DNA of 46,984 nucleotides from Rubrobacter calidifluminis (GTDB lineage: Bacteria; Actinomycetota; Rubrobacteria; Rubrobacterales; Rubrobacteraceae), in the NCBI RefSeq assembly GCF_028617075.1, contig NZ_JAQKGV010000019.1:1-46984 (forward strand), given 5' to 3'. This document shows, piece by piece, positions 8,422 through 38,900 of the stretch (positions are counted from its first letter, which is position 1; each line of letters begins with the position of its first letter). The notes below the pieces were generated by a model, which was not told the origin of the DNA, made no database searches, and saw nothing but the letters and a program-made list of their open reading frames with translations. The translations under genes and the position numbers were made by a program.

Positions 8422-8433
8422 TCTCTATCTACC

Positions 8434-10223: not shown

Positions 10224-10487
10224 CTATGCCACTCCTCGTAGCAGTTTAAATATCAATGGGGCTGGCGGTACGGTCAAGGATGCAGATGTGGTATCCGTAA
10301 ACACCGGCAGCATTCTACCGGCATGATCAGTAAGCTTATCACCATCCTTTCTGCGAGGGATCCTCCGAGAGGATCCCTCGTACACGTTCTCCTCCACGGC
10401 ACCCGGGGTCCTGTAAACAAATTTGAGGCTCCCTGTACCGTCCATCTCAGGCATATCCCGCAGGAGTATGGTTTCAGTGCCAATCAT
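10224..10487 (-). CDS. Small uncharacterised ORF overlapping the hyuB remnant stop
   Basis: An 87-codon frame whose ATG (10485-10487) overlaps the stop of the hyuB remnant in an ATGA junction, the same coupling seen between real genes of the neighbouring operon. The product (MIGTETILLRDMPEMDGTG and onward) has no domain that I recognise, no membrane segment and no signal peptide. It may be a genuine last subunit of the decayed operon, or simply a frame left open by chance. An 11-bp inverted repeat sits inside it, which is unusual for coding sequence. Existence as an expressed gene is doubtful, since the upstream gene is broken. Confidence 0.35.
   Translation of the reverse strand: MIGTETILLRDMPEMDGTGSLKFVYRTPGAVEENVYEGSSRRIPRRKDGDKLTDHAGRMLPVFTDTTSASLTVPPAPLIFKLLRGVA
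10354..10380. repeat. Perfect 11-bp inverted repeat (hairpin)
   Basis: CGAGGGATCCT at 10354-10364 and AGGATCCCTCG at 10370-10380 are exact reverse complements around a 5-base loop. It lies about 105 bases downstream of the hyuB remnant stop on the minus strand. It could be a transcript-end structure of the old operon. There is no T-run next to it, so it is not marked as a terminator. Confidence 0.55.
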
Positions 10488-13559: not shown

Positions 13560-13650
13560 CCGGGTCATCCTCCAATCTCTTGCGTTTCTTTTCCTGGACC
13601 GCCGTGGTCGTCGTTCCACAGAGCCCGGCCCTGAGCCGGTTATGCGGGTC

Positions 13651-16086: not shown

Positions 16087-17499
16087 CTACTCGCCCGGGG
16101 TCACGGCCTCGGGCCTGCCCGGTGTGGACGTCAACCCTCCCTCCACCTCGCTCTCCTTGCCGACGGGCTCCCAGCGTATCACCAGCAGGAAGATCAGCAT
16201 GATGAGGGGGATGGCCGCCAGGTAGAGGATGGTGTGGCTCAGCCCCGCGGCTGCGAGTACGAGTGGGAACACGTAGAAGCCTAGCATACTACCTACCCTC
16301 GACATCGCCTCTGCCCATCCCGTTCCCACTCCCCGGAACTCCGTGGGATACGACATGGCGGCCATCGTCTTGCCCTGTGACCCCTGCCCGAAAGAGTGGG
16401 CGAGGATGAAGATGCCCAGAAGCAGACCCTCCAGGTACACGGAGATGGATCCACGCGTGGTCCCCGCGACGACCAAGCTTGCCGCTGCCACCGAGCAACC
16501 GATGACGGCAAGTCTCCAGACACCCAGCCTGCGGGTGAGAAACGCCTGCGTTCCACCGCCGAGGATACCGAAGAGGTTTATCACGGTCGTTCCCAGGATG
16601 GCGTAGAGCAGGCCCTTGCCCAAGATCAGAGCGGATATGGTCGGGAGGTAGAACCCCACCGCGTAATACTCCATGCTCTGTAGACCGGAGATGATCGAAG
16701 CCAGCGCTGTCCTAGCCCTGTATCCTGGCTGGAATATTGCCCCGAACCTTATGCGGCTCGGGCGCATGGACTCTTCCTCGGAGGGTTCCACCTCCACTCT
16801 GACATCGTAGTTCTTCTGGAGGATCCTGCCGGCCTCGCTCAGACCGAGATGATGTGCGGCCCACATCGGGCTCTCGTCCGCGTAGCGGAATCTCAACGCG
16901 AGGACCACCAGCGCCGGCACGGCACCGAATCCCACGGCCCAGCGCCACAGCTCGCCGCCCGCGCCGGCGAGGAACATCACAAGCGCGACCAGCCCCGTGC
17001 AGACCGTCGCGCAGTACCACATCATCTGCCAGAAGTTTACGTACTTGCCCTTGTCGCGGGAGTTGGTGAACTCAGCGACGAAGCTCAGAGACGCGGGCAT
17101 ATCGAGGCCGACCCCCACTCCGAGGCAGAACCTGAAGAAGAGCAGCCACCCCAGGTTCGGCGAGAGCGCTGCGCCCAGGGCCGCCACGACGAACAGGAAC
17201 AGGTCTATGGTGAACAGCTTGTAGCGACCTACCCTCTCGACCAGATATCCTCCGAACAGCGCGCCGATCAGCGCCCCGAACGCCATGATCGCCGTGACGG
17301 TACCCAGCTGGAAGGCGCTCAGAGAGAGCTCCTTCTGGAGTGAATCGACGCCGAACCCCAGGCTCGTGAAGTCGTAAGCGTCGATAAAAATGCCTCCCAG
17401 GGCCACGAACGCCAGTATCCGCGCCCTGCGGCTTCCGCTCGGGTGCGAGTTGACGTAGTTGATTATGTCCCGTTTGGAGCGTACGGTCAGGGTTTCCAT
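16087..17499 (-). CDS. MFS transporter, sugar-porter-like acid/sugar permease
   Basis: A 470-residue major facilitator protein with 12 predicted hydrophobic segments. The cytoplasmic N-terminus is followed by ILAFVALGGIFIDAYDFTSL, the D-x-Y-D signature seen in aromatic-acid and sugar-acid carriers. GALFGGYLVERVGRYKLFTI is the A-motif between helices 2 and 3, and FRFCLGVGVGLDMPASLSFV is helix 4/5. A central soluble loop (RYADESPMWAAHHLG to FGAIFQPGYRART) joins the two halves. It lies in the middle of the 21334-12621 operon, 40 bases before the epimerase gene. It probably brings in a second acid or polyol for the downstream epimerase, LarA-family and dehydrogenase enzymes. Direction and substrate are inference. 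Confidence 0.82.
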   Translation of the reverse strand: METLTVRSKRDIINYVNSHPSGSRRARILAFVALGGIFIDAYDFTSLGFGVDSLQKELSLSAFQLGTVTAIMAFGALIGALFGGYLVERVGRYKLFTIDLFLFVVAALGAALSPNLGWLLFFRFCLGVGVGLDMPASLSFVAEFTNSRDKGKYVNFWQMMWYCATVCTGLVALVMFLAGAGGELWRWAVGFGAVPALVVLALRFRYADESPMWAAHHLGLSEAGRILQKNYDVRVEVEPSEEESMRPSRIRFGAIFQPGYRARTALASIISGLQSMEYYAVGFYLPTISALILGKGLLYAILGTTVINLFGILGGGTQAFLTRRLGVWRLAVIGCSVAAASLVVAGTTRGSISVYLEGLLLGIFILAHSFGQGSQGKTMAAMSYPTEFRGVGTGWAEAMSRVGSMLGFYVFPLVLAAAGLSHTILYLAAIPLIMLIFLLVIRWEPVGKESEVEGGLTSTPGRPEAVTPGE

Positions 17500-17579: not shown

Positions 17580-18515
17580 TTACCCTCCTTCCTCGGTTAC
17601 ACCATCCACGCGCAACTCCACGTTCGTGCTCTGCTCCAGGAGCTTTACCAGGGCTCCCCAGTCCTCCCCGCCGAGTCCTGAGGCTTGGCCCTCCACGTAG
17701 CGCTGAAACGCCTGCCCGATGACCGGGAGCGGGACCCGACGTCGGGCGGCGGCCTCTAGGCCAATCTTCATGTCCTTGGCCTCCAGGTCTATGGAGAACC
17801 CAGGCTCGAAATCGCGCGCCACCACCCTGCGGGCGAACGTGTTGCGCAGATGGTAGCAGTCCGCCCCGGCGCTAGAGAGTGCCTTTATCAGCAGCTCGAG
17901 AGGTGCGCCGGCCCTGACTCCGAGGACCAGCCCCTCGGCGACGGCCTCGAGGATTGTGCCTGAGACCAAGTTGTTGACCATCTTTATGGTGGAGGCGACC
18001 CCGAGATCTCCGCAGAAAGTGATCTCGGAAGCCACGCACCTGAGAAGAGGCTCGACCTGCACGTATGTCTCTTCGTTCCCCGCGACCATCAGGGAGAGGG
18101 TGCCCTCCGCAGCCTCCCTTGAACTTTTGCCCATCGGGGCGTCCAGCAGACAAACCCCGTGCGCCTCCAGGTGGTCTCCGAGAGAGACCACAGCATCGGG
18201 TCCGATGGTACCCAGGTTCACCACGACGTCGCCCTGCTTGAGTGAGCCGACGAGGCCATCGTCGCCGAAGACCGCCTCGTGCGTGATCTCCGCGTCGGGC
18301 AGGATCAAGAGGAAGATCTTGCAGTCCTTCGGGAAACCGCTCGGGGATCCCACCGGACGACCTCCTGCTTTGGAGAGTAACTGCAGCCGCTCCCGCCGGA
18401 CGTCGTGACCGTACACTTGGTTGCCTTTCTTCGCGAGCCTTCCGGCTATAGGGAGTCCCATCGTGCCGAGCCCCACCACAGCCACGCAGCCCGCGTACTG
18501 CCCTCCGGTCAGCAT
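17580..18515 (-). CDS. YihU-like beta-hydroxyacid dehydrogenase, candidate sulfolactaldehyde reductase/DHPS dehydrogenase
   Basis: A 311-residue protein with the NAD(P) loop VAVVGLGTMGLPIAGRL (residues 11-27) and the catalytic Lys178 in STIKMVNNLVSG. The decisive segment is DAPMGKSS at residues 125-132. Most 3-hydroxyisobutyrate dehydrogenases have Ser-Gly-Gly here. E. coli YihU, the sulfolactaldehyde reductase, has Gly-Arg-Thr-Ser, whose Arg holds the sulfonate. Gly-Lys-Ser-Ser is a conservative match with Lys for Arg. Other YihU-like features are FSIDLEAKDMKIGLEAAA and the GGEDWGALVKLLEQ tail. It sits nine bases after the aldehyde dehydrogenase and divergent from suyAB. In this setting it would oxidise 2,3-dihydroxypropanesulfonate to sulfolactaldehyde or do the reverse. 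A non-sulfonated substrate remains possible. Confidence 0.75.
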   Translation of the reverse strand: MLTGGQYAGCVAVVGLGTMGLPIAGRLAKKGNQVYGHDVRRERLQLLSKAGGRPVGSPSGFPKDCKIFLLILPDAEITHEAVFGDDGLVGSLKQGDVVVNLGTIGPDAVVSLGDHLEAHGVCLLDAPMGKSSREAAEGTLSLMVAGNEETYVQVEPLLRCVASEITFCGDLGVASTIKMVNNLVSGTILEAVAEGLVLGVRAGAPLELLIKALSSAGADCYHLRNTFARRVVARDFEPGFSIDLEAKDMKIGLEAAARRRVPLPVIGQAFQRYVEGQASGLGGEDWGALVKLLEQSTNVELRVDGVTEEGG

Positions 18516-18524: not shown

Positions 18525-20045
18525 CTAATCCGGATGTGGATTTCCTATGAACCGAAGATCGCGCGTAGCAATATACTGGTATTCAAGGAATTCCTCCAAT
18601 CCCTCGTGCCCTCCTTCGCGTCCGATCCCGCTGTCCTTCACCCCGCCCATCGGGACGTTGGCCGCGCTCGCGAGCCCCTCGTTGACGCCCGCTATACCGA
18701 CCTCGAGGCTCGAGGCTACACGCAGAGCTTTCGTCTCATCGTGAGAGAATACGTAGGCTGCTAGTCCGAGAGGGTTCTGTTTCAGATGACCGATGAGCTC
18801 CGACAGATCAGAGAACCCCACCACCAGCGCCAGAGGCCCGAAGATCTCGGTCCGTAGCAGGTGCTGATCTGTGTCGCGGTAATCGCGAGAGACGAGCAGC
18901 TCCGCCGGGAAAAAGCACTCTGGATAGATGCCATCCTGCCGAGATGGCATCCGCGCTGCCGCCACCCGCGCGAATCCTCTCTCGAGAGCACGGTCGCGGA
19001 TCTCTTCCACCGCCCGGCGCCGCTCTACGTTTATGAGAGGGCCAAGCGTGGTCTCTTCCCGCAGGGGGTCTCCCAGCCGCAAGTCGTTTATCCGCTCGCC
19101 AAGGCCGGAGATAAACTCCTCGTAGCATCTGTCGTGTACGTAGAAGACGTTGGCCGCGACGCAGGATTGCCCACAGTTGCGGAACTTGCTCACCATGGCC
19201 TGCTCGACGGCGAGCCCGAGATCTGCATCCTCAAGCACGATGAACGGCGCACAGCCCCCAAGCTCAAGTGCCAGACGCTTGGTAGTCGCCGCAGACCTCT
19301 CGTAGAGCTTCTTCCCTACGCTGGTGGAACCTGTGAAGCTCAGAACCCTGACCCGCGGATCCTCTAGCATAGGGCGCGTGATCTCCTCCGCCGGCCCAGT
19401 CAGCAGGTTAGCCACTCCTTCCGGAAAACCTGCTTCTTCCAAACACCCGAAGAGTTTCACGACGGAGTTAGGCGCCTCCTCGCTGGGGCGAGCAACAACG
19501 GTGCAGCCGGCCGCTAGGGCCGGGGCGATCTTGCGCGCCTGGATTGAGACGGGAAAGTTCCACGGGGTGAGGCACGCGGCCACCCCGGCCGGCTTTCGCA
19601 GTATCATCTGGGGGCCTCCATCTCGGCCTTCCACGCAGGTGAACCGCTGAAGCCGCCGGGCCTCCCCGGAAAACCATCGGAAGTAGTCGGCAGCGAAGTG
19701 CACCTCGCCCACCGCTTCTCCGAGCAACTTTCCACTCTCGAGTGCGAGTACCTCTCCTATCACCTCCGCCCGCTCGACGAGCAGCCGACTCACGCGCTCA
19801 AGAATCCGTGCACGCTCGAACGCCGGTGTCTTCCGCCAGCGGTCCAGCGCGCCGGCCGCCGCTTCCACGGCCTCTTTTGCATCCTCCTCGTCTGCCAGTG
19901 CCTGACGGGATATTACCTCTCCGGTAGCGGGATTCATCACCTCGAATGATGACGACCTCGTCCGCCATACACCCCCGATGAACATCGGGGCCGCTTCTAT
20001 GCCTCCCAGTACCGAGGTACGGCGTTCGCCTCTCTCTGAGCTCAT
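18525..20045 (-). CDS. Aldehyde dehydrogenase, candidate sulfolactaldehyde dehydrogenase
   Basis: A 506-residue ALDH-superfamily enzyme. The ATG at 20043-20045 overlaps the stop of the upstream transporter (ATGA). The order of motifs is complete: TPWNFPVSIQARKIAPALAA (160-179), the nucleotide loop FTGSTSVGKKLYE, general base Glu261 in LALELGG, nucleophile Cys295 in NCGQSCVAAN, and EIFGPLALVVGF. Arg171 occupies the place of the substrate-anchoring Arg of succinate-semialdehyde dehydrogenase, so an anionic aldehyde is likely. Residue 186, in VVARPSEE, is Arg where nearly all ALDHs have the cofactor-binding Lys. Known sulfolactaldehyde dehydrogenases are of this GabD-like type. Next to suyAB and a YihU-like gene, oxidation of sulfolactaldehyde to sulfolactate is the best guess, with succinate semialdehyde as the fallback. 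Confidence 0.82.
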   Translation of the reverse strand: MSSERGERRTSVLGGIEAAPMFIGGVWRTRSSSFEVMNPATGEVISRQALADEEDAKEAVEAAAGALDRWRKTPAFERARILERVSRLLVERAEVIGEVLALESGKLLGEAVGEVHFAADYFRWFSGEARRLQRFTCVEGRDGGPQMILRKPAGVAACLTPWNFPVSIQARKIAPALAAGCTVVARPSEEAPNSVVKLFGCLEEAGFPEGVANLLTGPAEEITRPMLEDPRVRVLSFTGSTSVGKKLYERSAATTKRLALELGGCAPFIVLEDADLGLAVEQAMVSKFRNCGQSCVAANVFYVHDRCYEEFISGLGERINDLRLGDPLREETTLGPLINVERRRAVEEIRDRALERGFARVAAARMPSRQDGIYPECFFPAELLVSRDYRDTDQHLLRTEIFGPLALVVGFSDLSELIGHLKQNPLGLAAYVFSHDETKALRVASSLEVGIAGVNEGLASAANVPMGGVKDSGIGREGGHEGLEEFLEYQYIATRDLRFIGNPHPD

Positions 20046-21334
20046 TGGTTGACCACCTCCGCTGCACGCTCGTCCTGCACCAATCTCATCTGGCGTATCG
20101 GGGTGAGGAAGAACACCACGCAGAGGATCGCACCCAGCATCGTGACCCCACAAAGCGACAGCGCCGCTGCGAACCCGAAGTACTCCGCTACCACGCCCGT
20201 GAGGGCGGGTGCGACGATCGAGGCCAGCGCTCCCGCGGTGTTCATTATCCCACCGAGCGATCCTGCCGCTCCGCCCGGCGCCAAATCCTGGGGCACCGAC
20301 CACAGGATGGCCGTGGATGCCGACTCTGCGGCCATCGCGAGGACGAGCAGCCAGGCTGCCGTCGTCGCCGAATGCGCGAACGCGGCTCCTACGACCGATA
20401 TCGCTACCAGCTGCGAAACCACGAGGATGCTCTTCTTGACCCGATTCAGGTTGTAACCCCTGCCGATGAGCCTGTCGCTGAGCATGCCTACCAGCGGCTG
20501 CGCCAACACGCCGGCTATCCAGGGCATCGTCGCGTAGAACGCTACGCTGCCCAGGTTCATGTGGCGTGCTTCGATCAGGTACCCTGGCAACCAGGTGAGA
20601 TATAGATAGTAGACGTAGTCCTGGAAGAACTTGATGAACACGATCGCCCAGGTGTTCCGGCGCTGCAGGAGCAGACGTAGCCTCACACCACCCCCCGATT
20701 TCGCCAGGACGTCTTCCCTGGTAGCAGGACGCCGTTCACGAAAGCTGAACATCCAGAGCGCTACCCACGCTAGGCTGGCCAGACCGGTCACGACGAAGGC
20801 TATATGCCAGTCCGGATCGGCCCGCGAGCCGAACCAGACCATCAGTCCTAGCATTATCCCAGGAGTCAGCGCGTACCCCAGCCGTAAACCGGAGAGGTAG
20901 ACGCCTGTCGCCGTACCACGCCGCTCTGGTCTGAAATTCTCCGTGACGACCTTAGTCGCCGCAGGGAAGTTCGCCGCTTCCCCGGCACCCACGATCAGCC
21001 TGCTGAAGAGCAGCGTGACCGGAGTCCTCGCGAAACCGGTGAGCATCGAACCTAGCGACCAGATGGCTGCTGCGGCCCCATACACTCGCTTCGCTCCCAG
21101 CCGATCGCAGAGATACCCGGCCGGAAGATTGAATAGCAGATAGGTCCAGCCAAAGGCGGAGAGTATGACGCCCATCGCAGCCTTGCTCATATGCAGATCT
21201 CCAGCGATGAAGGTGTTGGCTGTAGAGATGCTGCCCCGGTCGATCGCATTGATCAGCGTGCCTGAGAAAAGCAGAAAAATGATCCAGATCTGCCATTTCG
21301 AATGTCCGGCAAAGACCTTCCGGAAACTTCTCAA
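20042..21334 (-). CDS. MFS transporter, anion:cation symporter type, candidate sulfolactate/DHPS importer
   Basis: A 430-residue, 12-helix major facilitator of the ACS (glucarate/phthalate) group. Landmarks are LINAIDRGSISTANTFIAGD in helix 1, MGVILSAFGWTYLLFNLPAG in helix 2, GYLCDRLGAKRVYG as A-motif, and SRLIVGAGEAANFPAATKVV in helix 4 with the conserved GAGEA-xFP. The carriers of this group move small organic anions. It is the first gene of the minus operon and divergent from suyA, with 182 bases between the starts. That position suits uptake of the sulfonate that both operons consume. The aldehyde dehydrogenase start overlaps its stop. Confidence 0.85.
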   Translation of the reverse strand: MRSFRKVFAGHSKWQIWIIFLLFSGTLINAIDRGSISTANTFIAGDLHMSKAAMGVILSAFGWTYLLFNLPAGYLCDRLGAKRVYGAAAAIWSLGSMLTGFARTPVTLLFSRLIVGAGEAANFPAATKVVTENFRPERRGTATGVYLSGLRLGYALTPGIMLGLMVWFGSRADPDWHIAFVVTGLASLAWVALWMFSFRERRPATREDVLAKSGGGVRLRLLLQRRNTWAIVFIKFFQDYVYYLYLTWLPGYLIEARHMNLGSVAFYATMPWIAGVLAQPLVGMLSDRLIGRGYNLNRVKKSILVVSQLVAISVVGAAFAHSATTAAWLLVLAMAAESASTAILWSVPQDLAPGGAAGSLGGIMNTAGALASIVAPALTGVVAEYFGFAAALSLCGVTMLGAILCVVFFLTPIRQMRLVQDERAAEVVNQ

Positions 21335-21516
21335 CCGTTCGCCTCCTCAATACCAGCCTGCTCCCACGAAGGAATAATCTACTATATAAGTAGACTTTGT
21401 GCGTTTGTGTGTGGACCTGGAGGTGTCTCTCCCAATCATGTTACCCTCAACACCGCGTATTGGTATTACGTTATACTATAGCTGTGAAAGCGAGAAAACA
21501 AGAAGGAGATTCGAGA
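21335..21516. promoter_or_regulatory. Divergent control region between transporter and suyA
   Basis: This 182-base region separates two divergent operons and must hold both promoters. It is richer in A+T than its surroundings. TCTACT-N5-AGTAGA at 21378-21394 is a 6-bp inverted repeat with a TATA-like centre. TATACT at 21472-21477 is a likely -10 element for suyA, although its -35 partner is weak (TCAACA at 21447-21452 is 19 bases away). The FCD regulator encoded in the operon is the natural candidate to bind here. Its operator cannot be assigned by eye. Confidence 0.45.
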
Positions 21517-21795
21517 GTGCACAAGTTCCTGATCCACAAACGCGGGGATCACGTCGGGGTTACCATCTCGGATGTAGAAGCTGGAGAGAGGGTGATCGGG
21601 ATATTTATGGACGACGATTCAAAGATCGAAGTGGTGGCCAGGGATGACGTACCGCTCGGGCACAAGATTGCGATCTCGGATCTCGAGCCGGGAGGTACGG
21701 TGATCGAGTACGGTGTACGTATAGGCAAGGCCCCTGAGGGACTTTCAGTGGGCGATTACGTTCACACTCACAACCTTAAGAGCGCGAGGTGGTAA
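21517..21795 (+). CDS. suyA: Sulfolactate sulfo-lyase small subunit (SuyA, SAF domain)
   Basis: A 92-residue SAF-domain protein. The start is the GTG at 21517, with GAAGGAG eight bases upstream. The frame is open further back but without a good site. The product runs from [20 protein letters not shown] through [14 protein letters not shown] to [14 protein letters not shown]. The length and the end HxHNxKxxRW match SuyA, the 8-10 kDa partner of SuyB. Together they split (2R)-3-sulfolactate into pyruvate and sulfite in the cytoplasm. Split altronate dehydratases share the fold, so the assignment leans on SuyB and the two sulfolactate dehydrogenase genes that follow. It overlaps suyB by seven bases. 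Confidence 0.85.
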
Positions 21796-22952
21796 CCGTG
21801 GAAGAGCTGTTCGGCTTTCGCAGGGAAAACGGACGGGTCGGGGTGCGCAACCACGTCGTCATCCTGCCGGTCGACGATATCTCGAACGCCGCGTGTGAGG
21901 CCGTGGCAAGCCACGTGCAGGGTACCATGGCGCTGCCGCATTCGTACGGACGCCTGCAGTACGGCGAGGATCTGGAGCTTCATTTCAGGACCATGATCGG
22001 GACCGGCTCCAACCCGAACGTGGCCGCCGCGGTCGTCATAGGTATCGAAGAGAACTGGACTGCCAGGGTGGCAGAGGGCATCAGGGAGACCGGAAAACCC
22101 GTGGCCCAGTTCTCCATTGAGGGACACGGAGACTTCGAGACTGTACGCAGGGCCTCTTGGAAAGCCAGGGAGTTCGTGCAGTGGGCCTCTGAGCTCCGGC
22201 GCGAGCCGGTTGGGCTCGAAGATCTCACGGTAAGCATCAAGTGCGGAGAGTCAGACACCACGACCGGACTCGCCTCGTGCCCCACCGTGGGTGTAGTGGT
22301 AGACCGGCTCGTGGATGCAGGCGCGACAGTCATATTCGGTGAGACCTCGGAGCTCACGGGAGGTGAGCACCTGATCGCCGAGCGGATGGCCACCCCAGAG
22401 CTCAAGGAGAGGTTCATGGAGACGTACGAGAGCTACGTCTCTTTCATCGAATCTCAGGGTGTGGACCTGCTGGGATCACAACCAACCCAGGGCAACATAG
22501 CCGGAGGGCTCTCGACGATCGAGGAGAAGGCTCTGGGCAACATCGAGAAGACGGGAACAAAAGAGATTATAGGTGTTCTGAAACCTGCCGAGGCACCGCA
22601 GGATGGCCCAGGGCTCTACTTCATGGACAGCTCCTCGGCTGCCGCTGAATTCGTCACGCTCATGGCCGCTGGGGGAGCAGTTGTCCATCTTTTCCCCACC
22701 GGGCAGGGTAATATAGTGGGCAACCCCATAGAGCCGGTCATAAAGATCTCCGCCAACCCCAAGACCGTAAAGAGTATGGCTGAGCACATAGACGTGGACG
22801 TGAGCGGGCTTCTGAGCCGCGAGCTCACGCTTCCTGAGGCCGGAGACCTCCTTATGGAGGATCTGGTCCGGACGGTGAACGGCAGGCTGACGTCGGCGGA
22901 GGTGTTGGGGCACAGAGAGTTCGTGATGACCAAACTATATCCTAGCGCGTAA
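21789..22952 (+). CDS. suyB: Sulfolactate sulfo-lyase large subunit (SuyB)
   Basis: A 387-residue protein of the UxaA/SuyB family, the catalytic subunit that eliminates sulfite from (2R)-sulfolactate. It matches the SuyB pattern I know in many places: [150 protein letters not shown] and the end [14 protein letters not shown]. Cysteines in KCGESD and ASCPT fit the family's metal site. The size equals the 42-kDa SuyB of the characterised enzyme. Either the GTG at 21789 or the one at 21798 is the start; the latter has GAGGTGG just upstream. Confidence 0.87.
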
Positions 22953-22968
22953 AGGAGAGACGAGCATC

Positions 22969-23694
22969 ATGTTCAAACCCGTCTCGGACAGTCGGGCGTA
23001 CAGCGAAAAGATCGTCTCACAGATCACCGATGCCATTGTCAAAGGAGACCTTAAACCCGGTGACAGGATGCCGACCGAGCGGGACCTCGCGGAGCAGTTC
23101 GGCGTCAGCCGCACCGTAGTCAGAGATGCGGTGAAGACGCTCGCTGGGCGCGGCATCCTGCGGGTTAAGCAGGGAGCAGGGATCTTCGTCGCCACACCGG
23201 AGGAGGCCATGCCGGGAGCCCTGAGCGCCCTATCCAGGATGATCCTCGTGGGAGGCCCTGCCCTCAGGGATCACTTCGAGGTCCGTAAAATCCTGGAGAC
23301 ACAGGCCGCTGAGTGGGCTGCAGAGAGAGCGAAGGACCACCATTTGGAGCGCCTGCAGCAGATCCTCAACGACGCCTTCAGGTACGAAAACGATCCGGAA
23401 GTGTTGAGCGAGCGTGACGCCAGGTTCCACACCGGGCTCGCCGAAGCCTCCGGGAACCTCGTGCTCGTTCGTGTTATGCTGGTTCTGCTCGACCTCCTAT
23501 CCGCCAGCCGACGCGAGACACTGAGTATACCCGGGAGGGCCCGCCAGTCTCTGGAGGACCACGTACGCATCTTGGAGCAGGTAAAGGCCCGGAATCCCGC
23601 CGGGGCCCGTCAGGCCATGCTCGACCACCTCGAGTCGGTCGAGACCTCACTGGCCAGGATTCATCCCGAGCTCGGGATCGGGGTTCCGGCGTGA
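22969..23694 (+). CDS. GntR/FadR-type regulator with FCD domain
   Basis: A 241-residue transcription factor with ATG start and AAGGAG ten bases upstream. Residues 10-75 form a winged helix-turn-helix: KPGDRMPTERDLAEQFGVSR then TVVRDAVKTLAGRGILRVKQ and GAGIFV. The C-terminal two-thirds is an all-helical FCD ligand domain with the usual metal residues: Asp and His in RDARFHTGLAEASGN, His in EDHVRILEQ and His in MLDHLES. Members are usually repressors released by the acid their operon degrades. Its place between suyB and slcC suggests autoregulation and control of the divergent transporter operon by sulfolactate or sulfopyruvate. The effector is inferred. Confidence 0.88.
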   Translation: MFKPVSDSRAYSEKIVSQITDAIVKGDLKPGDRMPTERDLAEQFGVSRTVVRDAVKTLAGRGILRVKQGAGIFVATPEEAMPGALSALSRMILVGGPALRDHFEVRKILETQAAEWAAERAKDHHLERLQQILNDAFRYENDPEVLSERDARFHTGLAEASGNLVLVRVMLVLLDLLSASRRETLSIPGRARQSLEDHVRILEQVKARNPAGARQAMLDHLESVETSLARIHPELGIGVPA

Positions 23695-23755
23695 CGGATG
23701 CAAAGACGAGACGGGCTCGGAGAACCGCCGGCGCCGGAGAGAAAACGTACTCGCC

Positions 23756-24706
23756 GTGAGCAAGATCGTCGTAACCGAGCTCATGTGGCCCCGGGGGCTG
23801 GAGGAGCTACGCTCCTGCGGCAGCGTGGTCTATGACCCCGAGATGTGGACGAAACCAGAAGAGCTTGTTGCGGAGGTGACCTCTGCCGATGCCCTGATCG
23901 TCCGCAACGCGACCAGAGTCGATGCTTCTCTGCTCGAAGCCGGTCGAAAGCTCAGGGTGGTGGGCCGACTGGGTGTCGGTCTGGACAACATAGACCTTGC
24001 AGCGGCGAGAAGGCGGAGGTTGCCCGTGGTCTACGCGAGAAACGCCAACGCCACCTCCGTGGCCGAGTACGTAATGGCTGCTTTGCTGGAGGGTTCGCGG
24101 AAACTCTACGAAGCTAGTGCGAGCGTACGAAGAGGAGACTGGAACCGCAAGCAATTCACGGGGGCGGAACTCTACGGCAAGACCCTGGGGTTGATCGGAC
24201 TGGGCGAGACCGCCCGGCGGGTCGCCAAGCGAGCGAGGGCGTTCGAGATGGGGGTCCTGGGTTACGACCCCTACGTTGCTCCCTACGACTACCCGGTGAT
24301 GGAGGGAGGAATCGAAATGGTGGAACTCGCGGACCTTCTCCGGCGCGCAGACTTCGTGAGCCTGCACGTACCCCTGACCAGTGAGACCCGACACATGATT
24401 TCCAGGGATTCTTTTAAGATGATGAGGCACGATGCCTGGATCATAAACGCCTCTCGTGGCGGAGTCTTGGACGAGATGGCGCTGGCGGCAGCTCTGAACG
24501 AGGGACTCATCGCCGGAGCCGTGCTTGACGTGCTGGAAGAAGAGCCACCCCCCCCCGACAACCCCCTCCTGAAGCAGGACCGAGTAATACTCACGCCACA
24601 TGTTGCGGGCCTCACCGAGGAATCTCAGGAACGTATCTCTCTCCTGATTGCACGCGAAGTTATCAGGGTGCTGAAGGGGGGACATTCCCTGTGCCTGGCA
24701 ACTTGA
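23756..24706 (+). CDS. slcC: (S)-sulfolactate dehydrogenase-like D-2-hydroxyacid dehydrogenase (SlcC)
   Basis: A 316-residue NAD-dependent D-isomer 2-hydroxyacid dehydrogenase of the phosphoglycerate dehydrogenase type, lacking the C-terminal regulatory domains of SerA. Visible motifs are VVGRLGVGLDNIDLAAARRR, NATSVAEYVMAALL, the Rossmann loop LGLIGLGETARRVAKRA, INASRGGVLDEMALAAAL with the substrate Arg, the Glu in DVLEEEPPPPDNPL and the His in LTPHVAGLT. SlcC of Chromohalobacter, which oxidises (S)-sulfolactate to sulfopyruvate, belongs to this family. Together with comC it forms the two-dehydrogenase racemase that supplies the (R)-isomer to SuyAB. The GTG start has only a weak ribosome-binding site. 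A generic hydroxyacid dehydrogenase role is possible, but the gene context is strong. Confidence 0.82.
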   Translation: MSKIVVTELMWPRGLEELRSCGSVVYDPEMWTKPEELVAEVTSADALIVRNATRVDASLLEAGRKLRVVGRLGVGLDNIDLAAARRRRLPVVYARNANATSVAEYVMAALLEGSRKLYEASASVRRGDWNRKQFTGAELYGKTLGLIGLGETARRVAKRARAFEMGVLGYDPYVAPYDYPVMEGGIEMVELADLLRRADFVSLHVPLTSETRHMISRDSFKMMRHDAWIINASRGGVLDEMALAAALNEGLIAGAVLDVLEEEPPPPDNPLLKQDRVILTPHVAGLTEESQERISLLIAREVIRVLKGGHSLCLAT

Positions 24707-25755
24707 AAGACCGAAGAGGGGCCGGCCGCCACCCGGCCGAGGCGTTGACTTGCTTTTGCAGAGACGTTCTGACGAGCCTCGGCGTGCCCGACGAAGATGC
24801 CGCTGTGGTAGCCGACTCGCTCGTGCGCGCCAATCTGGAAGGCAAGGATAGTCACGGCATAAGCCGGCTTCCGATCTACGCCAAACGCATACGGGAATGT
24901 AGAATCTCCGCCCGGCCGGACATCTGCATAGATCGAGACGGGGCGGTGCTGAAAGTAGATGGCGGTAACGGGCTGGGGCAGGTGGTTTCGTACAAGGCAC
25001 TCCAGGCTGCTTTTCCGGTAGCAAGAGAAACCGGGATAGCAGCGGTGGCGGTGAGAAACAGCAACCACTTCGGGGCCGCATCCTACTACTGCCAGATGGC
25101 GTGCCGGGAGGGCATGGCTCTCATCGCTACCACCAATTCACCCCCGGGCATAGCTCCCTGGGGCGGCAAGAGAGCCTACCTGGGGACCAATCCCGTAGCC
25201 TTTGGCTTTCCTACCCGGCGGGAACCGCCGGTCATCGTGGACATGTCCTCTAGCATCGTAGCCCGCGGCAAGATCATCTTGGCCGCAGCGGAGGGTCGTG
25301 AGATACCCCAGGATTGGGCGATTGACGAAGAGGGGTTGCCCACCACCGATGCGGAAGCCGCACTCAGAGGGGCTGTACTTCCACTCGGCGGTCCCAAAGG
25401 CTACGCCTTGGCCGTCGCTGTTGAGATGCTCTCGGGTGTGCTCTCCGGAGCTGCTTTCGGTCCTCACGTCAACAACCTGTACAAGGATGGCGATCCGCCG
25501 GCCAACGTCGGGCACAGCTTCATCCTGATCGATGTGGAGCATCTTATGCCTCTGGAGGAGTACTACGCTAGGCTTGAGCGGTTCATTAGAGAGATGAAGT
25601 CGCATCCGAAAGCCAGAGGGACAGAAGAGATCCTATACCCTGGTGAGCGCAGCTATCGCACCTATATGAACAGACTCCGGGAAGGCGTTACGCTGAACCC
25701 GAGCCTGAAGAGTATGCTGAATGATATCGGTCGTGCCTGTGGGGTGAACCTCTGA
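24691..25755 (+). CDS. comC: (R)-sulfolactate dehydrogenase-like Ldh_2-family oxidoreductase (ComC)
   Basis: A 354-residue member of the malate/L-sulfolactate dehydrogenase (Ldh_2) family, whose fold is unrelated to ordinary lactate dehydrogenase. Signatures are DSHGISRLPIYAKRI near residue 55, VAVRNSNHFGAASYYCQMAC near 115 with the active-site His, GTNPVAFGFPTR, MSSSIVARGKI and PLGGPKGYALAVAVEMLSG. The GTG start overlaps the end of slcC by 16 bases and has a GGGGG-rich site. ComC reduces sulfopyruvate to (R)-sulfolactate, completing inversion of the (S)-isomer. The gene order suyA-suyB-regulator-slcC-comC makes this the likeliest role. Malate, ureidoglycolate and other 2-hydroxy acids are used by relatives. 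Confidence 0.82.
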   Translation: MPGNLKDRRGAGRHPAEALTCFCRDVLTSLGVPDEDAAVVADSLVRANLEGKDSHGISRLPIYAKRIRECRISARPDICIDRDGAVLKVDGGNGLGQVVSYKALQAAFPVARETGIAAVAVRNSNHFGAASYYCQMACREGMALIATTNSPPGIAPWGGKRAYLGTNPVAFGFPTRREPPVIVDMSSSIVARGKIILAAAEGREIPQDWAIDEEGLPTTDAEAALRGAVLPLGGPKGYALAVAVEMLSGVLSGAAFGPHVNNLYKDGDPPANVGHSFILIDVEHLMPLEEYYARLERFIREMKSHPKARGTEEILYPGERSYRTYMNRLREGVTLNPSLKSMLNDIGRACGVNL

Positions 25756-25950: not shown

Positions 25951-27303
25951 CTATTCTTCTGCAGAGGCCATCATTGTGTGGCGAACCCTATCCTCCTCCG
26001 CTTCTGCGATATCGTTCCTGAACGTCTCCGTGGCCAGATAGGTACACGCGAAGGATAGCAGAGATATAGCGGCCAGAAACGCGGCGACGAGCCAGGGTTT
26101 TCCTCCTCCAGCCGCAAGCAGGGAGGTGGCGATCAGCGGCGTCACCCCTCCGACTATTGACGAAAGCTGGTAGGCAATGGAAACCCCGCTGTAGCGCACC
26201 TGTGTGCCGAACAATTCGGTGAAGAAGACCGACTGTACGGCAAATACTAGGGTAGGGCCAAAAATGTAACCTGCGATGATGGCCAGCCATATCAAGGCTA
26301 GCACCCTGGTGTCCAACAACAGGAAGAAAGGGAAAGCGAAGAGCACGAGGAATCCAGTGCCCGCCATGTAGACGGGGCGGCGTCCGACGCGGTCGGAGAT
26401 CGCCCCAAAGAGCGGGCAGACGAGCACGCCGATAGCAGAGGCGATCAGGATGCCGCTCAATCCCGTACTCTTCGAGAGCCCCAGTTGGGTGGTCAGATAG
26501 GCGATCCCGAAGGCGTTTATGATGTTAGAGGAGACAGTTTCGGCGAGACGCGCCCCGAGGGTCAGGAATATATTCTTCGGGTAAGATCTCAACAACTCGA
26601 AGAGCGGGATTCTGGCTTCGTTTCCCTCTTTCTTCATCCGGGTAAACGCCGGGGTTTCCGCGATGCGCACGCGTATGTACAGTCCCACACCCAGCAGCAG
26701 GACGCTGATCAGAAACGGCACGCGCCAGCCCCAGGACAGTAACTGGCTCTGCGGGAGCAGGGAGACGAGGGCGAAGACTCCGGTCGCGAGCAAAATCCCC
26801 GCCGAGGCCGCCGATTGGGGCACCCCGGCCCAAAAACCTCGCTGGTTCCTCGGAGAGTGCTCGATGGTCATCAGGGCCGCTCCGCCGTACTCGCCCCCTA
26901 GACCAATGCCCTGCAACAGGCGCAGGACGACGAGGAGGATGGGCGCCCAGATTCCGATGGATTGGTAGGTGGGGAGAAGGCCGATCAGAAACGTGCCGCC
27001 GCCCATAATGAGTATGCTGAGGATCAGCATGGCTTTGCGCCCCAGCCTGTCGCCATAGTGGCCGAAGATCGCCCCGCCCACAGGCCGCATCACAAAGCCG
27101 ACCCCGAAGGTCGCGAAAGCGGCTATGGTCCCCACGGTTGGATCGAAGTTAGGGAAAAACAGCTCGTTAAAAACAAGGGCCGACGCCGTTCCGTACAGGA
27201 AAAAATCGTACCATTCCATAAGGGCTCCGGCGAAACTCGCCGTTGCCACCTTTCTCATGGAAACCCTCTCCCCTCTCTGCTTACCACCCAACCTATCCAT
27301 CAC
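25951..27303 (-). CDS. MFS transporter, metabolite:H+ symporter (ProP/ShiA-like)
   Basis: A 450-residue, 12-helix carrier of the MHS group. It has FAGALMEWYDFFLYGTASAL in helix 1, FGVGFVMRPVGGAIFGHYGD and RLGRKAML as the A-motif, LQGIGLGGEYGGAALMTIEH in helix 4/5, and RGFWAGVPQSAASAGILLAT. These match citrate, alpha-ketoglutarate, shikimate and proline/betaine porters. A GTG (27303) and an ATG (27300) both follow GGAGG. It is the last gene of the minus operon, facing comC tail to tail across 195 bases. It may export or import an organic acid tied to the operon's alcohol dehydrogenase. The substrate is unknown. Confidence 0.85.
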   Translation of the reverse strand: MMDRLGGKQRGERVSMRKVATASFAGALMEWYDFFLYGTASALVFNELFFPNFDPTVGTIAAFATFGVGFVMRPVGGAIFGHYGDRLGRKAMLILSILIMGGGTFLIGLLPTYQSIGIWAPILLVVLRLLQGIGLGGEYGGAALMTIEHSPRNQRGFWAGVPQSAASAGILLATGVFALVSLLPQSQLLSWGWRVPFLISVLLLGVGLYIRVRIAETPAFTRMKKEGNEARIPLFELLRSYPKNIFLTLGARLAETVSSNIINAFGIAYLTTQLGLSKSTGLSGILIASAIGVLVCPLFGAISDRVGRRPVYMAGTGFLVLFAFPFFLLLDTRVLALIWLAIIAGYIFGPTLVFAVQSVFFTELFGTQVRYSGVSIAYQLSSIVGGVTPLIATSLLAAGGGKPWLVAAFLAAISLLSFACTYLATETFRNDIAEAEEDRVRHTMMASAEE

Positions 27304-27364: not shown

Positions 27365-28396
27365 TCACCGCTCGACACTGACCTGCACCTTGACACTGTA
27401 GGCGGGATTCAGGGCCTCCTCGTATGCTTCCCGGACGTGTTCGAGAGGAAAAACTTTGCTTGAAATCAAACGTCCGTAGATCTGCCCGTTGGACCCTGAG
27501 AGGATTGAGACCGCTCTTTCTATGTCCGCCATCGTGTACATCTGGCTGCCGACGACTCTGGTTTCGTACCGGCTCATGAGGTACAGTCCCATGTCCTGAG
27601 ACCTCTCGAAGGTGCCGACGAGAACGACCGCTGCAGGAGCCGGTACAAGGTCCATGAGGGAGCTGACAACCTCCAGCCTCCCGGTGCATTCGAAAACCAC
27701 CGCCTGATGTCTTGATCCGAGCGCCCACTCAAGCTCAGATACCGCAGAGACAACCTCGAAGCCCAAGTCCTCGGCGAACTCGGTTCTGCGCGGGTTGATC
27801 TCCACGAAATGCACGTCTGCGCCGTAGGCTTCCCGCGCGTGCATTCCTACGAGCAAACCGATCGGTCCCGCGCCGGTGACCACCACCGGCTGGTCGCGTG
27901 CGATCCCCACCAGCGATGCCGCGTGAACGGCCACCGCGAGTGGTTCGCACAGGGCGCCCTTTCTGAGATCGAACCCTTCCGGCAGGGGAATCACGTTCTC
28001 AACTGGCACACTGACGATGTCTGCGAGCCCACCGGGTCTTTGAAATCCGATCACTTGGCGGTTCAGACAAATGTTGGGCCGATTCAACCTGCAGTGGGCG
28101 CAGACCTTGCAGGGGACCAAGGGCGTAAACGTAACCGGCTCTCCTACCTCCAGTCCGGTATCCTCCGGGGCCCAGTAGACTCTCCCCGCACACTCGTGGC
28201 CCAGTACAACAGGGGCCCTCACCCTCGGATGTCTTCCCAGGAAGACGTGCAGGTCCGAACCACACACACCGACGATGGAGACCGCCACCAGAACCTCGTC
28301 CGGCATCCGCGAGGGTTCGACCGTCTCTGTGATCGTGAAATTCCTCGTCCCGGTCAAGACTACCCGTCTCATCTTCCTGCGTAGGTTCTCAGTCAT
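27365..28396 (-). CDS. Zinc-dependent alcohol dehydrogenase (threonine/sorbitol dehydrogenase-like)
   Basis: A 343-residue medium-chain dehydrogenase. The start is the ATG at 28394-28396, one base after the kinase stop and within its AAGGATGAG site, because the longer frame has no family similarity upstream. Catalytic zinc ligands are in VGVCGSDLHVF and LGHECAG with the later Glu in LCEPLAVAVHA. The structural zinc uses CKVCAHCRLNRPNIC, and the cofactor loop is VVVTGAGPIGLLVGMHAREA. It oxidises a secondary alcohol of a sugar, polyol or hydroxy acid. Within the isomerase-aldolase-kinase operon it may process the aldehyde or polyol released by the aldolase. Confidence 0.87.
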   Translation of the reverse strand: MTENLRRKMRRVVLTGTRNFTITETVEPSRMPDEVLVAVSIVGVCGSDLHVFLGRHPRVRAPVVLGHECAGRVYWAPEDTGLEVGEPVTFTPLVPCKVCAHCRLNRPNICLNRQVIGFQRPGGLADIVSVPVENVIPLPEGFDLRKGALCEPLAVAVHAASLVGIARDQPVVVTGAGPIGLLVGMHAREAYGADVHFVEINPRRTEFAEDLGFEVVSAVSELEWALGSRHQAVVFECTGRLEVVSSLMDLVPAPAAVVLVGTFERSQDMGLYLMSRYETRVVGSQMYTMADIERAVSILSGSNGQIYGRLISSKVFPLEHVREAYEEALNPAYSVKVQVSVER

Positions 28397-28397
28397 C

Positions 28398-29888
28398 TCA
28401 TCCTTCCTTGAGAGTCGGAGGCAAGGGTAAACGTAAGATTTCGAGGTATGCCTCATAAGCTTGTGACATCTGCTCCGCGCGCGAAGGGTCGGGCTCGTAG
28501 CTTCGGCTACCACGCAGGCTCCTATCTGCGATTTCACACAGGGACTTGCAGACACCTGCGCCGACGGCGGCGCAGATCGCGGCTCCCCAGGCCCCGGTCT
28601 CGGCGACAGGGCTGACGGTCACGGTGTTCCACAAAGCGTCTGCGAATATCTGGCTCAAAGTCTGGCTACGGGTTCCTCCTCCAGACAGCAGGACATTATC
28701 GAATCGTGATCCAAGCCTAGAAGCTTGGTGTTTGTGGTCGAATGCCACCCCTTCCATCAGGGCTTTGACCATGTGTCCCCGGGTGTGCCAACTTCTCAAG
28801 CCTAGGAAGGCGGCGGCCTTCCAGCTGTTGCCGGAAGAACCATTGATAAAGGGCAGGAAGACAATCTCCGGCCCCTCCCCTAGCAACCGGCTGGCCTCGT
28901 AGTCTGCGAGTTTGAACCGGGAGGTATCCGGATCTTTCCCGGAGCTGACCGGATAGAATTCCTCAACGAACCATCCCAAGTTGGCTGCTGAAGAAGGTGA
29001 ATTGGACATAAGCGCCCAATAACCGGGTGTGGCAAAGCGGCGGCAAACTAGCCCTTCTTTGGCGACTGGCTCGGTGGTGAGGGTTCCGTTTATTCCCCAG
29101 GTGCCACTCACCATGCAGAGTCGGCCGGGATGCGTGCATCCTGTACCCAGCATGCTCGCCAAGGCATCAACCAGACCGCCCACCACCGGGGTGCCCGGAT
29201 CGAGGCCTGTGGCTTCCGCCGCTTCACGGGTGACTCTGCCCGCGATCTCGATACTTCCCTTGATTGGAGGAAGCTTTCTGCCGGCCTGTTCCAAACCCAG
29301 CATCTCGAGAAGGTCAACCCGATATTCCCCCGTCGCTATGTCCCCGCAGAAGCTGTTCGCTTCCGTTGGATCGGTCCATATCTCACCCGTGAGCCGCAGG
29401 CGAATCCAATCCTTGCAGTTCAGGATCCAACGGGTCCTCCCGACGCTCTCTGGTTCATGGTGCTGAAGCCAGGCGAAGAGGGGAGCGGGTGAACCCGGGC
29501 GTGGCGACCTGCCGGTCGTGCGGAGTAGAGCTTCTTGTAATCCTTGCGCACGCCAGCCCTCCAGAATCGATGAAGACCGCGAGTCCAGCGAGAGTATGGC
29601 CGCCCTGACCGGGGCATGTTTGTGGTCTACCAAGTAAAGCCCGTCTCCGTGACCGCTCACCCCGACCGCGCTTATGTCTTTGCCTCTGATACCGGATTTC
29701 GAAATGGCTCCCCGGACGGCTCGCACGCAGGTTTCCCACAGGGCTTCCATGTCCCGCTCCACCAGCCCGGGGCTGAGTGTGACCTGAGGACTCTGTGCCG
29801 CCGAGGCTCCTAGAGGATTACCCGTCTCGTCGAATAGAACCGCTCTGGTGTTGGTCAGCCCGCTGTCAATGCCGAGTAGAACAGCCAC
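28398..29888 (-). CDS. FGGY-family carbohydrate kinase
   Basis: A 496-residue sugar kinase. The GTG at 29886-29888 is chosen because it gives MAVLLGIDSGLTNTRAVLFD, the first phosphate loop. The upstream extension of the frame is unrelated sequence overlapping the aldolase gene. The catalytic base is the Asp in GGLVDALASMLGTG. NCKDWIRLRLTGEIWTDPTE and SGGGTRSQTLSQIFADALW are the FGGY signatures of the N- and C-domains. The GLTNTRAV loop is typical of the L-xylulokinase/LsrK-like branch rather than glycerol kinase. It should phosphorylate the ketose made by the isomerase at 30796-32154 so that the aldolase next door can cleave it. Confidence 0.87.
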   Translation of the reverse strand: MAVLLGIDSGLTNTRAVLFDETGNPLGASAAQSPQVTLSPGLVERDMEALWETCVRAVRGAISKSGIRGKDISAVGVSGHGDGLYLVDHKHAPVRAAILSLDSRSSSILEGWRAQGLQEALLRTTGRSPRPGSPAPLFAWLQHHEPESVGRTRWILNCKDWIRLRLTGEIWTDPTEANSFCGDIATGEYRVDLLEMLGLEQAGRKLPPIKGSIEIAGRVTREAAEATGLDPGTPVVGGLVDALASMLGTGCTHPGRLCMVSGTWGINGTLTTEPVAKEGLVCRRFATPGYWALMSNSPSSAANLGWFVEEFYPVSSGKDPDTSRFKLADYEASRLLGEGPEIVFLPFINGSSGNSWKAAAFLGLRSWHTRGHMVKALMEGVAFDHKHQASRLGSRFDNVLLSGGGTRSQTLSQIFADALWNTVTVSPVAETGAWGAAICAAVGAGVCKSLCEIADRSLRGSRSYEPDPSRAEQMSQAYEAYLEILRLPLPPTLKEG

Positions 29889-29896
29889 GCTTATCC

Positions 29897-36102: not shown

Positions 36103-36148
36103 GGGCCCCCTTCTCCCCTCATGTTCTGAATGACGTATTTAGTATTAG

Positions 36149-36176
36149 GTTATACCAAAACGATCACCACGTCAAA
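36149..36176 (-). promoter_or_regulatory. Probable promoter of the GH2 sugar operon
   Basis: On the minus strand TTGACG (36175-36170) precedes TATAAC (36154-36149) with a 15-base gap, or TTTGAC with 16. This lies in the A+T-rich block 36120-36300. Transcription would begin near 36142, giving a leader of about 40 bases with an AGAAGGGGG ribosome-binding site before the ATG at 36102. Spacing is short for a vegetative promoter, so the call is tentative. Confidence 0.5.
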
Positions 36177-38765: not shown

Positions 38766-38900
38766 TCTTGTTTACGTTTTGCCTGCAAATCACTCGTTTT
38801 TTAGAATCACGCTCCGCCCTCTGTTTACATTGGGTTTGTTATGTGTTTTTGTTGTTAACAACAGGAGCTTTGCCAGAGCTTTTTGGGAGGAAGGGCCGAG

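Follow-up and report, generated by a model that had tools for sequence, protein, structure and literature searches.

Which substrate feeds a bacterial operon for sulfolactate breakdown, and do the genes on either side of it belong to the same route? This question is raised by a contig of Rubrobacter calidifluminis (NZ_JAQKGV010000019.1), the whole of which constitutes the window analysed here (46,984 nucleotides, one of the 54 contigs of a 3.09-Mb genome). It carries the genes suyA, suyB, slcC and comC together with a gene for an FCD-family regulator (Table 1). We put at about 0.62 the probability that these genes form the lower half of an 'extended' sulfosugar pathway on a plasmid-like contig, in which a six-carbon sulfosugar would be degraded via sulfolactaldehyde and sulfolactate to pyruvate and sulfite. 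This reading is carried by the SuyAB family membership, the operon structure, the linkage of a sugar isomerase to suyAB and a promoter motif common to two operons, all of them features of the sequence.

The five genes of the sulfolactate operon are open frames lying on one strand exactly where the sequence-only reading had placed them, with the domains it had named, and their intergenic gaps from suyA to comC (-7, 16, 61 and -16 bases) are as in an operon. In Pfam scans SuyB consists of GD_AH_second and GD_AH_C (286.6 bits), the regulator of GntR and FCD, SlcC of 2-Hacid_dh and 2-Hacid_dh_C, and ComC of Ldh_2 (413.8 bits). The best NCBIfam name of ComC is L-sulfolactate dehydrogenase, at 289.8 bits against a cut-off of 500, and the L-sulfolactate dehydrogenase 2x06 ranks second among its PDB matches. 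SuyA gave no Pfam match at E 0.001 and a weak NCBIfam match to the galactarate-dehydratase N-terminal family (6.7e-7); over its full length it is 35% identical to the protein adjoining suyB in Cupriavidus pinatubonensis. With a small suyA gene adjoining suyB, and a SerA-like and an Ldh_2 dehydrogenase gene adjoining both, the operon has the composition of the SuyAB and SlcC/ComC pairs and agrees, as had been proposed, with the racemase-plus-sulfolyase set in the accessible parts of two reports (PMC12421959; PMC9594981). That the operon encodes sulfolactate biomineralisation is well supported by these comparisons, from which the catalytic activity of every encoded enzyme is predicted.

SuyAB has the same Pfam domains as split altronate/galactarate-type dehydratases, and galactarate dehydratase is both the sole NCBIfam match of SuyB (138 bits, cut-off 731) and its sole PDB match at E 0.01, so that the pair might act on a sugar acid and not on sulfolactate. 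This explanation is very improbable, and it was rejected on the basis of tree placement and signature residues. In a 55-row tree, the check that had been suggested for exactly this confusion, the 35 rows that are at least about 60% identical to the window form one clade (support 100/100), which includes the SuyB of the window and stands apart from the altronate and galactarate dehydratases; the 20 other rows lie outside. The group label 'SuyB' was set by the analyst on that same identity, and the tree thus shows one clade and is not independent proof of substrate; the 35 rows count the window as one and genome G010 twice. One outside row (Own_C3_UxaAlike, mistranslated from the wrong strand, branch length 10) was left out of the alignment of 35 against 19 rows, in which 22 positions set the two groups apart: at least 97% of the SuyB rows share them (every row in the case of 20), and none of the 19 other UxaA-family rows does. 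The window has all 22, the clearest being E154 in the motif CGESD, where every one of the 19 has G (CGGSD). The sulfite-oxidase, hpsN/hpsO and sulfate-exporter genes that neighbour suyAB in relatives likewise speak against a sugar-acid substrate.

These neighbours were found on plasmids and within the host family. A tblastn search of plasmids with SuyB returned 314 records; 13 have an identity of 60-80%, and the other 301 stay under 60%, the first of these in the list standing at 40.7%. Among nine of the 13, whose neighbourhoods were inspected, suyAB is found near a gene for a putative sulfate exporter in Paracoccus versutus, P. aestuarii, P. seriniphilus, Rhodobacteraceae SC52 and Methylobacterium oryzae, near hpsN/hpsO on a Cupriavidus pinatubonensis plasmid, and near NAD(P)-dependent/hydroxyacid and Ldh dehydrogenases in Methylobacterium, P. 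aestuarii, P. seriniphilus and Rhodococcus koreensis; on the plasmid of R. jostii RHA1, the record of which is unannotated, slcC and comC homologues were located by tblastn. In the 60 genomes searched, SuyB orthologues occur in nine of 36 from the host family, its own genome counted, and the identity of 81-87% in the eight others shows that the presence of suyB is not due to chance. The two genomes of the same genus hold only a 29% SuyB paralogue. The combination of suyAB with slcC and comC is present in the window, G032 and G010, and homologues of the FCD regulator (60-66%) lie near suyAB in G020, G010, G032 and G029. Directly after suyAB in G031 (L042, 17347-18456) follows a sulfite-oxidase gene (PF00174 and PF03404), homologues of which (71-73%) stand after suyB in G021 (L037) and behind the FCD gene in G029 (L039); such a gene would serve the needs of an enzyme that releases sulfite. 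In the genome of the window, PF00174 and TauE-family genes lie on other contigs, the best PF00174 locus being 35% identical to the G031 protein.

As to the substrate, the sulfolactate degradation proposed from the sequence alone stands with regard to the SuyAB/SlcC/ComC set, whereas free sulfolactate as the substrate is an incomplete account, as adjacent operons offer plausible front ends for 2,3-dihydroxypropane-1-sulfonate (DHPS) and for a sulfosugar, one of them with the promoter motif of suyA. The sulfosugar front end centres on an isomerase in the operon convergent with comC. Its best NCBIfam family is the sulfoquinovose isomerase SftI, matched over the full length at 128.6 bits, and its AlphaFold2 model (22 rows; mean predicted local distance difference test score 91.2) has the expected fold, with template modelling scores of 0.84 to L-arabinose isomerase and 0.77 to FucI. 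By sequence, it is a distant relative of SftI/SqvD. Its closest relative found, a 53% homologue in G020, is encoded in a run SuyA-SuyB-FCD-phosphofructokinase-isomerase, and the two pair in the isomerase tree (97/86), where the window and G020 each stand twice, the second copies being labelled 'no' merely as these loci fall outside suyB. In G010, a protein much nearer to SftI (494.6 bits, still below the cut-off) lies with a PfkA-type kinase gene beside SuyA-SuyB-FCD-SlcC-ComC. Matches to the isomerase at E 1e-25 are confined to 13 of 296 genomes of the phylum, its own counted, with an identity of at most 30% in those other than its own and G020.

A wider genome scan with the isomerase yielded 80 loci. 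The sister group of window plus G020 (90/88, below the starred level) comprises 22 rows, namely 19 acidobacterial loci and L091, L092 and L097; two of the loci, L090 and L094, come from one metagenome-assembled genome. In 13 of the 19 acidobacterial loci SuyB starts 1,770-2,673 bases past the isomerase, and the other six end 0-1,443 bases past it, short of the minimum of 1,770, so that all 13 of the 13 testable loci have suyAB. In every one of these 13, the order is isomerase-aldehyde dehydrogenase-SuyAB, the intervening dehydrogenase being a 33-39% homologue of that of the window, and the same SlcC/ComC pair lies beside suyAB in 11, the remaining two contigs stopping at suyB. A homologue of the G010 phosphofructokinase is located just upstream of the isomerase in 18 of the 19 loci (the 19th, L090, begins at the isomerase), and an aldolase of the L080 type nearby in eight, the one in L080 itself belonging to PF01791. 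On these sequence data, this isomerase branch is recurrently linked to suyAB.

A further indication comes from the promoter regions. The near-palindrome GTATTACGTTATAC is located 41-54 bases before suyA, and GTATTAGGTTATAC, which differs from it by one base, 40-53 bases before the GH2 gene that heads the convergent operon. When the window was searched with at most one mismatch, this was the one further copy, against an average of 0.01 matches in shuffles, and the flanks prolong the likeness of the two (TTGGTAT...ATACTA). Loosened to fit both copies, the pattern occurs exactly at these two places only in the 3.09-Mb genome; with one mismatch allowed, three other places appear, equal in number to the matches of a reversed control. 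In a blind count of 14-base near-palindromes in the window, seven pairs agreed within one base, so the pair as such is not rare and it is the position before two operons that counts. G032 has a similar site with two mismatches at -53 of suyA. The suyA and GH2 operons are probably co-regulated, and the FCD protein may bind at these candidate operators.

The convergent operon, running from 36102 to 25951 with gaps of -13 to 71 bases, encodes in this order the GH2 glycosidase, sugar porter, isomerase, aldolase, FGGY kinase, zinc alcohol dehydrogenase and a major facilitator superfamily (MFS) transporter. In the proposed pathway, a sulfosugar, for which sulfoquinovose is a first guess, would be released by the GH2 enzyme or imported by the porter, and converted by the isomerase to a sulfoketose, which the FGGY kinase would phosphorylate at C1. 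FGGY kinases of 6-deoxyketoses phosphorylate C1, which by analogy would fit a 6-deoxy-6-sulfoketose. The class I aldolase would then cleave the sulfoketose 1-phosphate to dihydroxyacetone phosphate (DHAP) and (S)-sulfolactaldehyde. Oxidation of this aldehyde by the aldehyde dehydrogenase would give (S)-sulfolactate; SlcC would convert this to sulfopyruvate, ComC the latter to (R)-sulfolactate, and SuyAB would split (R)-sulfolactate into pyruvate and sulfite. DHPS might also be fed in by the YihU-like dehydrogenase and the HpsU/HpsP-like proteins. The available text of one study gives the cleavage product of sulfosugars as (S), and the order as (S)-sulfolactaldehyde, (S)-sulfolactate, sulfopyruvate and (R)-sulfolactate (PMC12421959); the (S) configuration of sugar-derived sulfolactate would be the reason for having slcC and comC in the operon.

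Table 1. Features of the window, with positions on the contig and the basis of each assignment.
Feature	Position	Strand	Basis
suyA, small SAF-type subunit of (R)-sulfolactate sulfolyase, 92 amino acids	21517..21795	+	GTG start within longer frame; similarity
suyB, large subunit of (R)-sulfolactate sulfolyase, 387 amino acids	21789..22952	+	domains, tree, signature residues, CGESD motif
FCD/GntR-family regulator, candidate controller of the cluster, 241 amino acids	22969..23694	+	GntR and FCD domains; homologues near suyAB
slcC, SerA-like, candidate (S)-sulfolactate dehydrogenase, 316 amino acids	23756..24706	+	domains; homologues beside suyAB
comC, Ldh_2 family, candidate (R)-sulfolactate dehydrogenase, 354 amino acids	24691..25755	+	domains; PDB list; homologues beside suyAB
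Candidate operator GTATTACGTTATAC	21463..21476		near-palindrome upstream of suyA, divergent promoter region
Candidate operator, second copy GTATTAGGTTATAC, one base different	36142..36155		upstream of GH2 operon
GH2 family glycosidase, RR-containing N terminus	33619..36102	-	homologues near isomerase in Acidobacteria, Verrucomicrobia
Sugar porter family transporter	32174..33547	-	family match
Arabinose/fucose-isomerase-fold aldose-ketose isomerase	30796..32154	-	best NCBIfam match SftI/SqvD sulfoquinovose isomerase
DeoC/LacD-family class I aldolase, candidate sulfoketose-1-phosphate aldolase	29897..30808	-	family match
FGGY-family carbohydrate kinase, candidate sulfoketose-1-kinase	28398..29900	-	family match
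Zinc alcohol dehydrogenase, HpsP-like by position	27365..28372	-	31% to dehydrogenase just before suyA in C. pinatubonensis
MFS symporter, HpsU-like by position	25951..27303	-	47.8% to MFS protein of C. pinatubonensis hps-suyAB cluster
MFS transporter (D-galactonate transporter subfamily), divergent from suyA	20042..21334	-	NCBIfam
Aldehyde dehydrogenase, candidate sulfolactaldehyde dehydrogenase (SlaB role)	18525..20006	-	family; homologues near suyAB
YihU/DhpA-like, candidate 3-sulfolactaldehyde reductase or DHPS dehydrogenase	17580..18515	-	PDB match; GKSS where YihU has GRTS
MFS transporter	16087..17499	-	homologues near suyAB in G032 (64%), R. koreensis (44%)
Plasmid replication initiator, RPA/Rep3 type	38883..40064	+	Pfam domains; relatives in family genomes

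Several observations weigh against the sulfosugar pathway and have to be set beside this evidence. The isomerase scores far under the SftI equivalog cut-off (128.6 against 700 bits), and membership of SftI/SqvD is not claimed. No suyAB was found in the stretches covered of the nine best-scoring isomerase loci outside the host family (L057-L065, 44-51%, some on short contigs), nor did suyAB turn up in the three sister-group loci from outside the Acidobacteria, namely L092, L097 and L091, the last of which stops at the isomerase; the tenth-ranked locus, L066, does have suyAB. Pfam scans of the neighbours of L057 and L092 revealed no clear pathway, and in L097 (Phycisphaerae) genes for a class II aldolase, a phosphofructokinase and the isomerase are consecutive, families of sulfo-EMP2 (EMP, Embden-Meyerhof-Parnas) according to the accessible part of PMC9594981. 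The operator was picked by eye and the genome-wide pattern loosened to fit both copies, and seven of eight relatives have no similar site upstream of suyA at up to two mismatches (one with just 62 bases available). The aldolase has a PF01791 domain and appears not to be detectably close to E. coli YihT (29% over just 73 amino acids, E 0.007). Hydroxyacid and Ldh dehydrogenase neighbours alone prove nothing, since a Variovorax pair outside the SuyB clade (39.7%, CGGSD) is likewise adjoined by them. Finally, Pfam scans of 40 window proteins, in which GH188 was outside the scan, found no GH31 domain.

In an alternative reading, only the genes for sulfolactate and DHPS (about 16.1-25.8 kb, with the MFS and alcohol dehydrogenase genes at 25.9-28.4 kb) would be a sulfonate system; the GH2, porter, isomerase, aldolase and FGGY genes would serve some ordinary sugar, for instance a galactoside or a pentose, and the adjacency of the two sets would reflect a catabolic plasmid. 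Aldolase-FGGY pairs (44-55%) lie close together in eight genomes (G023, G010, G022, G014, G062, G012, G005 and G003) on contigs without a SuyB match (G062 being outside the SuyB genome search), so that the pair may serve an ordinary ketose, and FucI-family isomerases with FGGY kinases are, in the accessible text of PMC11968277, widespread in gene neighbourhoods of ordinary aldoses and ketoses. L-arabinose isomerase is the nearest match to the predicted isomerase fold, the best NCBIfam match of the GH2 protein is beta-galactosidase, and the contig also holds a GH35 beta-galactosidase-type gene and hydantoinase genes. We nevertheless regard an ordinary sugar as rather unlikely, given that the nearest relative of the isomerase and its acidobacterial clade are tied to suyAB, that the palindrome of suyA recurs before the GH2 operon, and that SftI outscores L-arabinose isomerase (128.6 against 37.6 bits). 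In L060, L061, L070, L074 and L096 the isomerase has a GH2 homologue (44-47%, at least 90% of the length) no more than 10 kb away, which makes six of the 42 loci L057-L098 if a fragment in L095 is counted.

It is about equally unlikely that DHPS, or free sulfolactate, is the only upstream substrate, with DHPS converted by way of sulfolactaldehyde to sulfolactate through the HpsU-like MFS protein, the YihU/DhpA-like and HpsP-like dehydrogenases and the aldehyde dehydrogenase. In the divergent operon, gaps of 35 and 9 bases separate the genes for MFS transporter, aldehyde dehydrogenase and YihU-like protein. The aldehyde dehydrogenase has a 67% homologue divergent from suyAB in G032 and a 44% homologue beside suyAB on the R. 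koreensis plasmid. The best PDB match of the YihU-like protein is the E. coli 3-sulfolactaldehyde reductase YihU, and it has GKSS aligned where YihU has GRTS and GarR has SGGE; R123 of YihU is presumably a sulfonate ligand, for which a literature search gave no confirmation. The MFS protein at the end of the convergent operon is 47.8% identical over 414 residues to that of the Cupriavidus hps-suyAB cluster, which we take to be HpsU, and the alcohol dehydrogenase matches that cluster at 31%; a search of the window for HpsN found no match. On the R. koreensis plasmid, suyAB is accompanied by aldehyde dehydrogenase, MFS, YihU-like, slcC and comC homologues, and there is no isomerase match in 17 kb. 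DHPS alone would leave the isomerase linkage and the second operator copy unexplained. A DHPS route and the sulfosugar pathway are compatible, and both could hold.

Near the suyAB-isomerase clusters of G020 and G010 (L032, L035) are GH31 genes, the G010 copy scoring 832 bits on the E. coli-type model PRK10426 and the G020 copy being 64% identical to it. Q288, W304, Y508, D405 and D472 (E. coli numbering) are kept in both, and R301 is replaced by Q; the roles of all six in E. coli YihQ are assumed by us. Of the 39 family genomes, 11 have homologues of at least 60% identity (a fragment in one of them), and in seven of these 11 the genome search with SuyB found no orthologue. As a proof of sulfoquinovose these GH31 genes were weakened by the exchange at R301 and by such widespread homologues.

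Comparison with known systems places the sulfosugar pathway among several related routes. The slcC-comC-suyAB route of Chromohalobacter salexigens and Paracoccus, in the parts available, employs the same enzyme families, with two dehydrogenases acting as racemase before SuyAB (PMC12421959; PMC9594981), whereas the operon of the window is actinobacterial, has its own FCD regulator inside and no exporter gene within. The plasmids of R. koreensis R85 and R. jostii RHA1 share suyA, suyB, slcC and comC as well as homologues of the aldehyde dehydrogenase, MFS transporter and YihU-like protein, and differ in that isomerase, aldolase and GH2 of the window type have no match in the 17 kb and 31 kb covered. 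The Cupriavidus cluster is alike in its HpsU- and HpsP-position genes near suyAB; the YihU-like enzyme and aldehyde dehydrogenase would fill the role of HpsN in the window. Extended sulfo-TAL (TAL, transaldolase) with SuyAB in Thermotogae and Chloroflexi also combines a sulfosugar isomerase with SuyAB, for which full use of sulfoquinovose carbon is suggested in the accessible text of PMC9594981, yet a transaldolase stands there in place of the kinase and aldolase of the window. Sulfo-EMP and sulfo-EMP2 (YihS/YihV/YihT; SqvD/SqiK/SqiA), as described there, have the same sequence of isomerase, C1 kinase and aldolase leading to DHAP and sulfolactaldehyde, with an SftI/SqvD-related isomerase and PF01791 in YihT (PMC9594981). 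The window differs in its FGGY kinase (PF00370), which is neither PfkB (PF00294) nor PfkA (PF00365), the latter type being present in G020 and G010, in its aldolase, distant from YihT, and in the coupling to SuyAB. Sulfosugar cleavage is joined to SlcC/ComC/SuyAB within one organism in the tandem sulfofucose route of Paracoccus wurundjeri, where, in the text available, the upper half is of Entner-Doudoroff type (PMC12421959); that of the window looks EMP-like.

Sulfoquinovose production is given as of the order of 10 billion tons a year, and pathways which cleave its carbon chain as yielding short-chain sulfonates exported for other species, some such bacteria carrying genes for further breakdown (accessible part of PMC12890257); both halves in one bacterium are called unusual in the available text of PMC12421959. 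Hybrid sulfo-EMP1/2 sets have already been described for Proteobacteria and Actinobacteria, as far as the accessible texts go. An FGGY-kinase version, the acidobacterial clusters and a Rubrobacter-type plasmid were not met in the accessible parts of the open-access sulfosugar literature (including PMC12421959, PMC9594981, PMC12890257, PMC8873060, PMC13372026 and PMC11968277). The sulfolactate operon is a further representative of a known type of system, and the contig as a whole is most likely a variant of extended sulfoglycolysis not met before. A bolder proposal is that a single plasmid would mineralise a sulfosugar completely by a third, non-orthologous EMP-type set, comprising an isomerase branch distinct from SftI/SqvD, an FGGY C1 kinase, a class I aldolase of DhnA type and, beyond the known GH31 and GH188 families, a GH2 sulfoglycosidase, coupled to SlcC/ComC/SuyAB under one FCD regulator; as the isomerase branch recurs with a PfkA-type kinase and SuyAB in Acidobacteria, single soil bacteria that use a sulfosugar completely may be common. 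This we hold only tentatively, as somewhat less than an even chance. If the sulfosugar pathway holds, one cell could use the whole sulfosugar and not leave half to a partner, and a plasmid joining a sulfosugar front end to SuyAB, together with the acidobacterial order isomerase-aldehyde dehydrogenase-SuyAB, would show a bypass of this division of labour, with the FGGY kinase, aldolase and GH2 protein as testable new enzymes.

A different solution to racemisation may be present in L066 (Candidatus Sumerlaeota), where a run SuyA-SuyB-LarA-isomerase (7053-11329) includes a complete protein of the LarA family, with Lar_N at 192 bits and LarA_C at 47.5 bits, and neither SlcC nor ComC gave a match within 16.9 kb; this nickel-pincer LarA-family enzyme might be the sulfolactate racemase there. 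A Lar_N frame is also found in the window at 13651-15228.

The plasmid location and actinobacterial host named by the sequence-only reading are supported, in that the contig encodes a plasmid-family initiator with RPA/Rep3 domains in the Pfam scan, and the host family is actinobacterial. Relatives of the initiator are present in 19 of 39 family genomes, its own counted, and in G005, G017, G021 and G023, genomes of two to four contigs each, eight of eight matches lie off the largest contig. The GC content of the window is 0.600, compared with 0.647-0.663 in four stretches from the three first contigs of its genome, and a comparison of the contig ends for overlaps of 15-300 bases found none. The contig is plasmid-like and a candidate small plasmid. 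The claim that this combination of location and host would be unusual did not hold: SuyB is encoded at 66-67% identity, with suyA, slcC and comC homologues, on the two Rhodococcus plasmids (R. koreensis R85, R. jostii RHA1), and suyAB on actinobacterial plasmids is not new. Open-access papers listed for sulfolactate on Rhodococcus plasmids were all unrelated plasmid papers.

Further genes lie on the remainder of the contig. Another catabolic cluster (613-9768) consists of hydantoinase/oxoprolinase genes of types A and B, two S-Me-THD-like genes and a permease gene of cytosine/purine type. It is followed at 10484-11002 by a frame of 172 amino acids which matches just the C-terminal part of Hydantoinase_B, apparently the remnant of a gene. 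The operon divergent from suyA is continued on its strand by epimerase, Lar_N and 3-hydroxyisobutyrate-dehydrogenase-like genes (12621-16046). Between the GH2 operon and the replication gene, short transposase frames (36630-37157, 37421-37924; DDE_Tnp_1, DDE_3) are probably insertion-sequence remnants, and the GH35 beta-galactosidase-type frame (44003-46984) runs to the right contig end.

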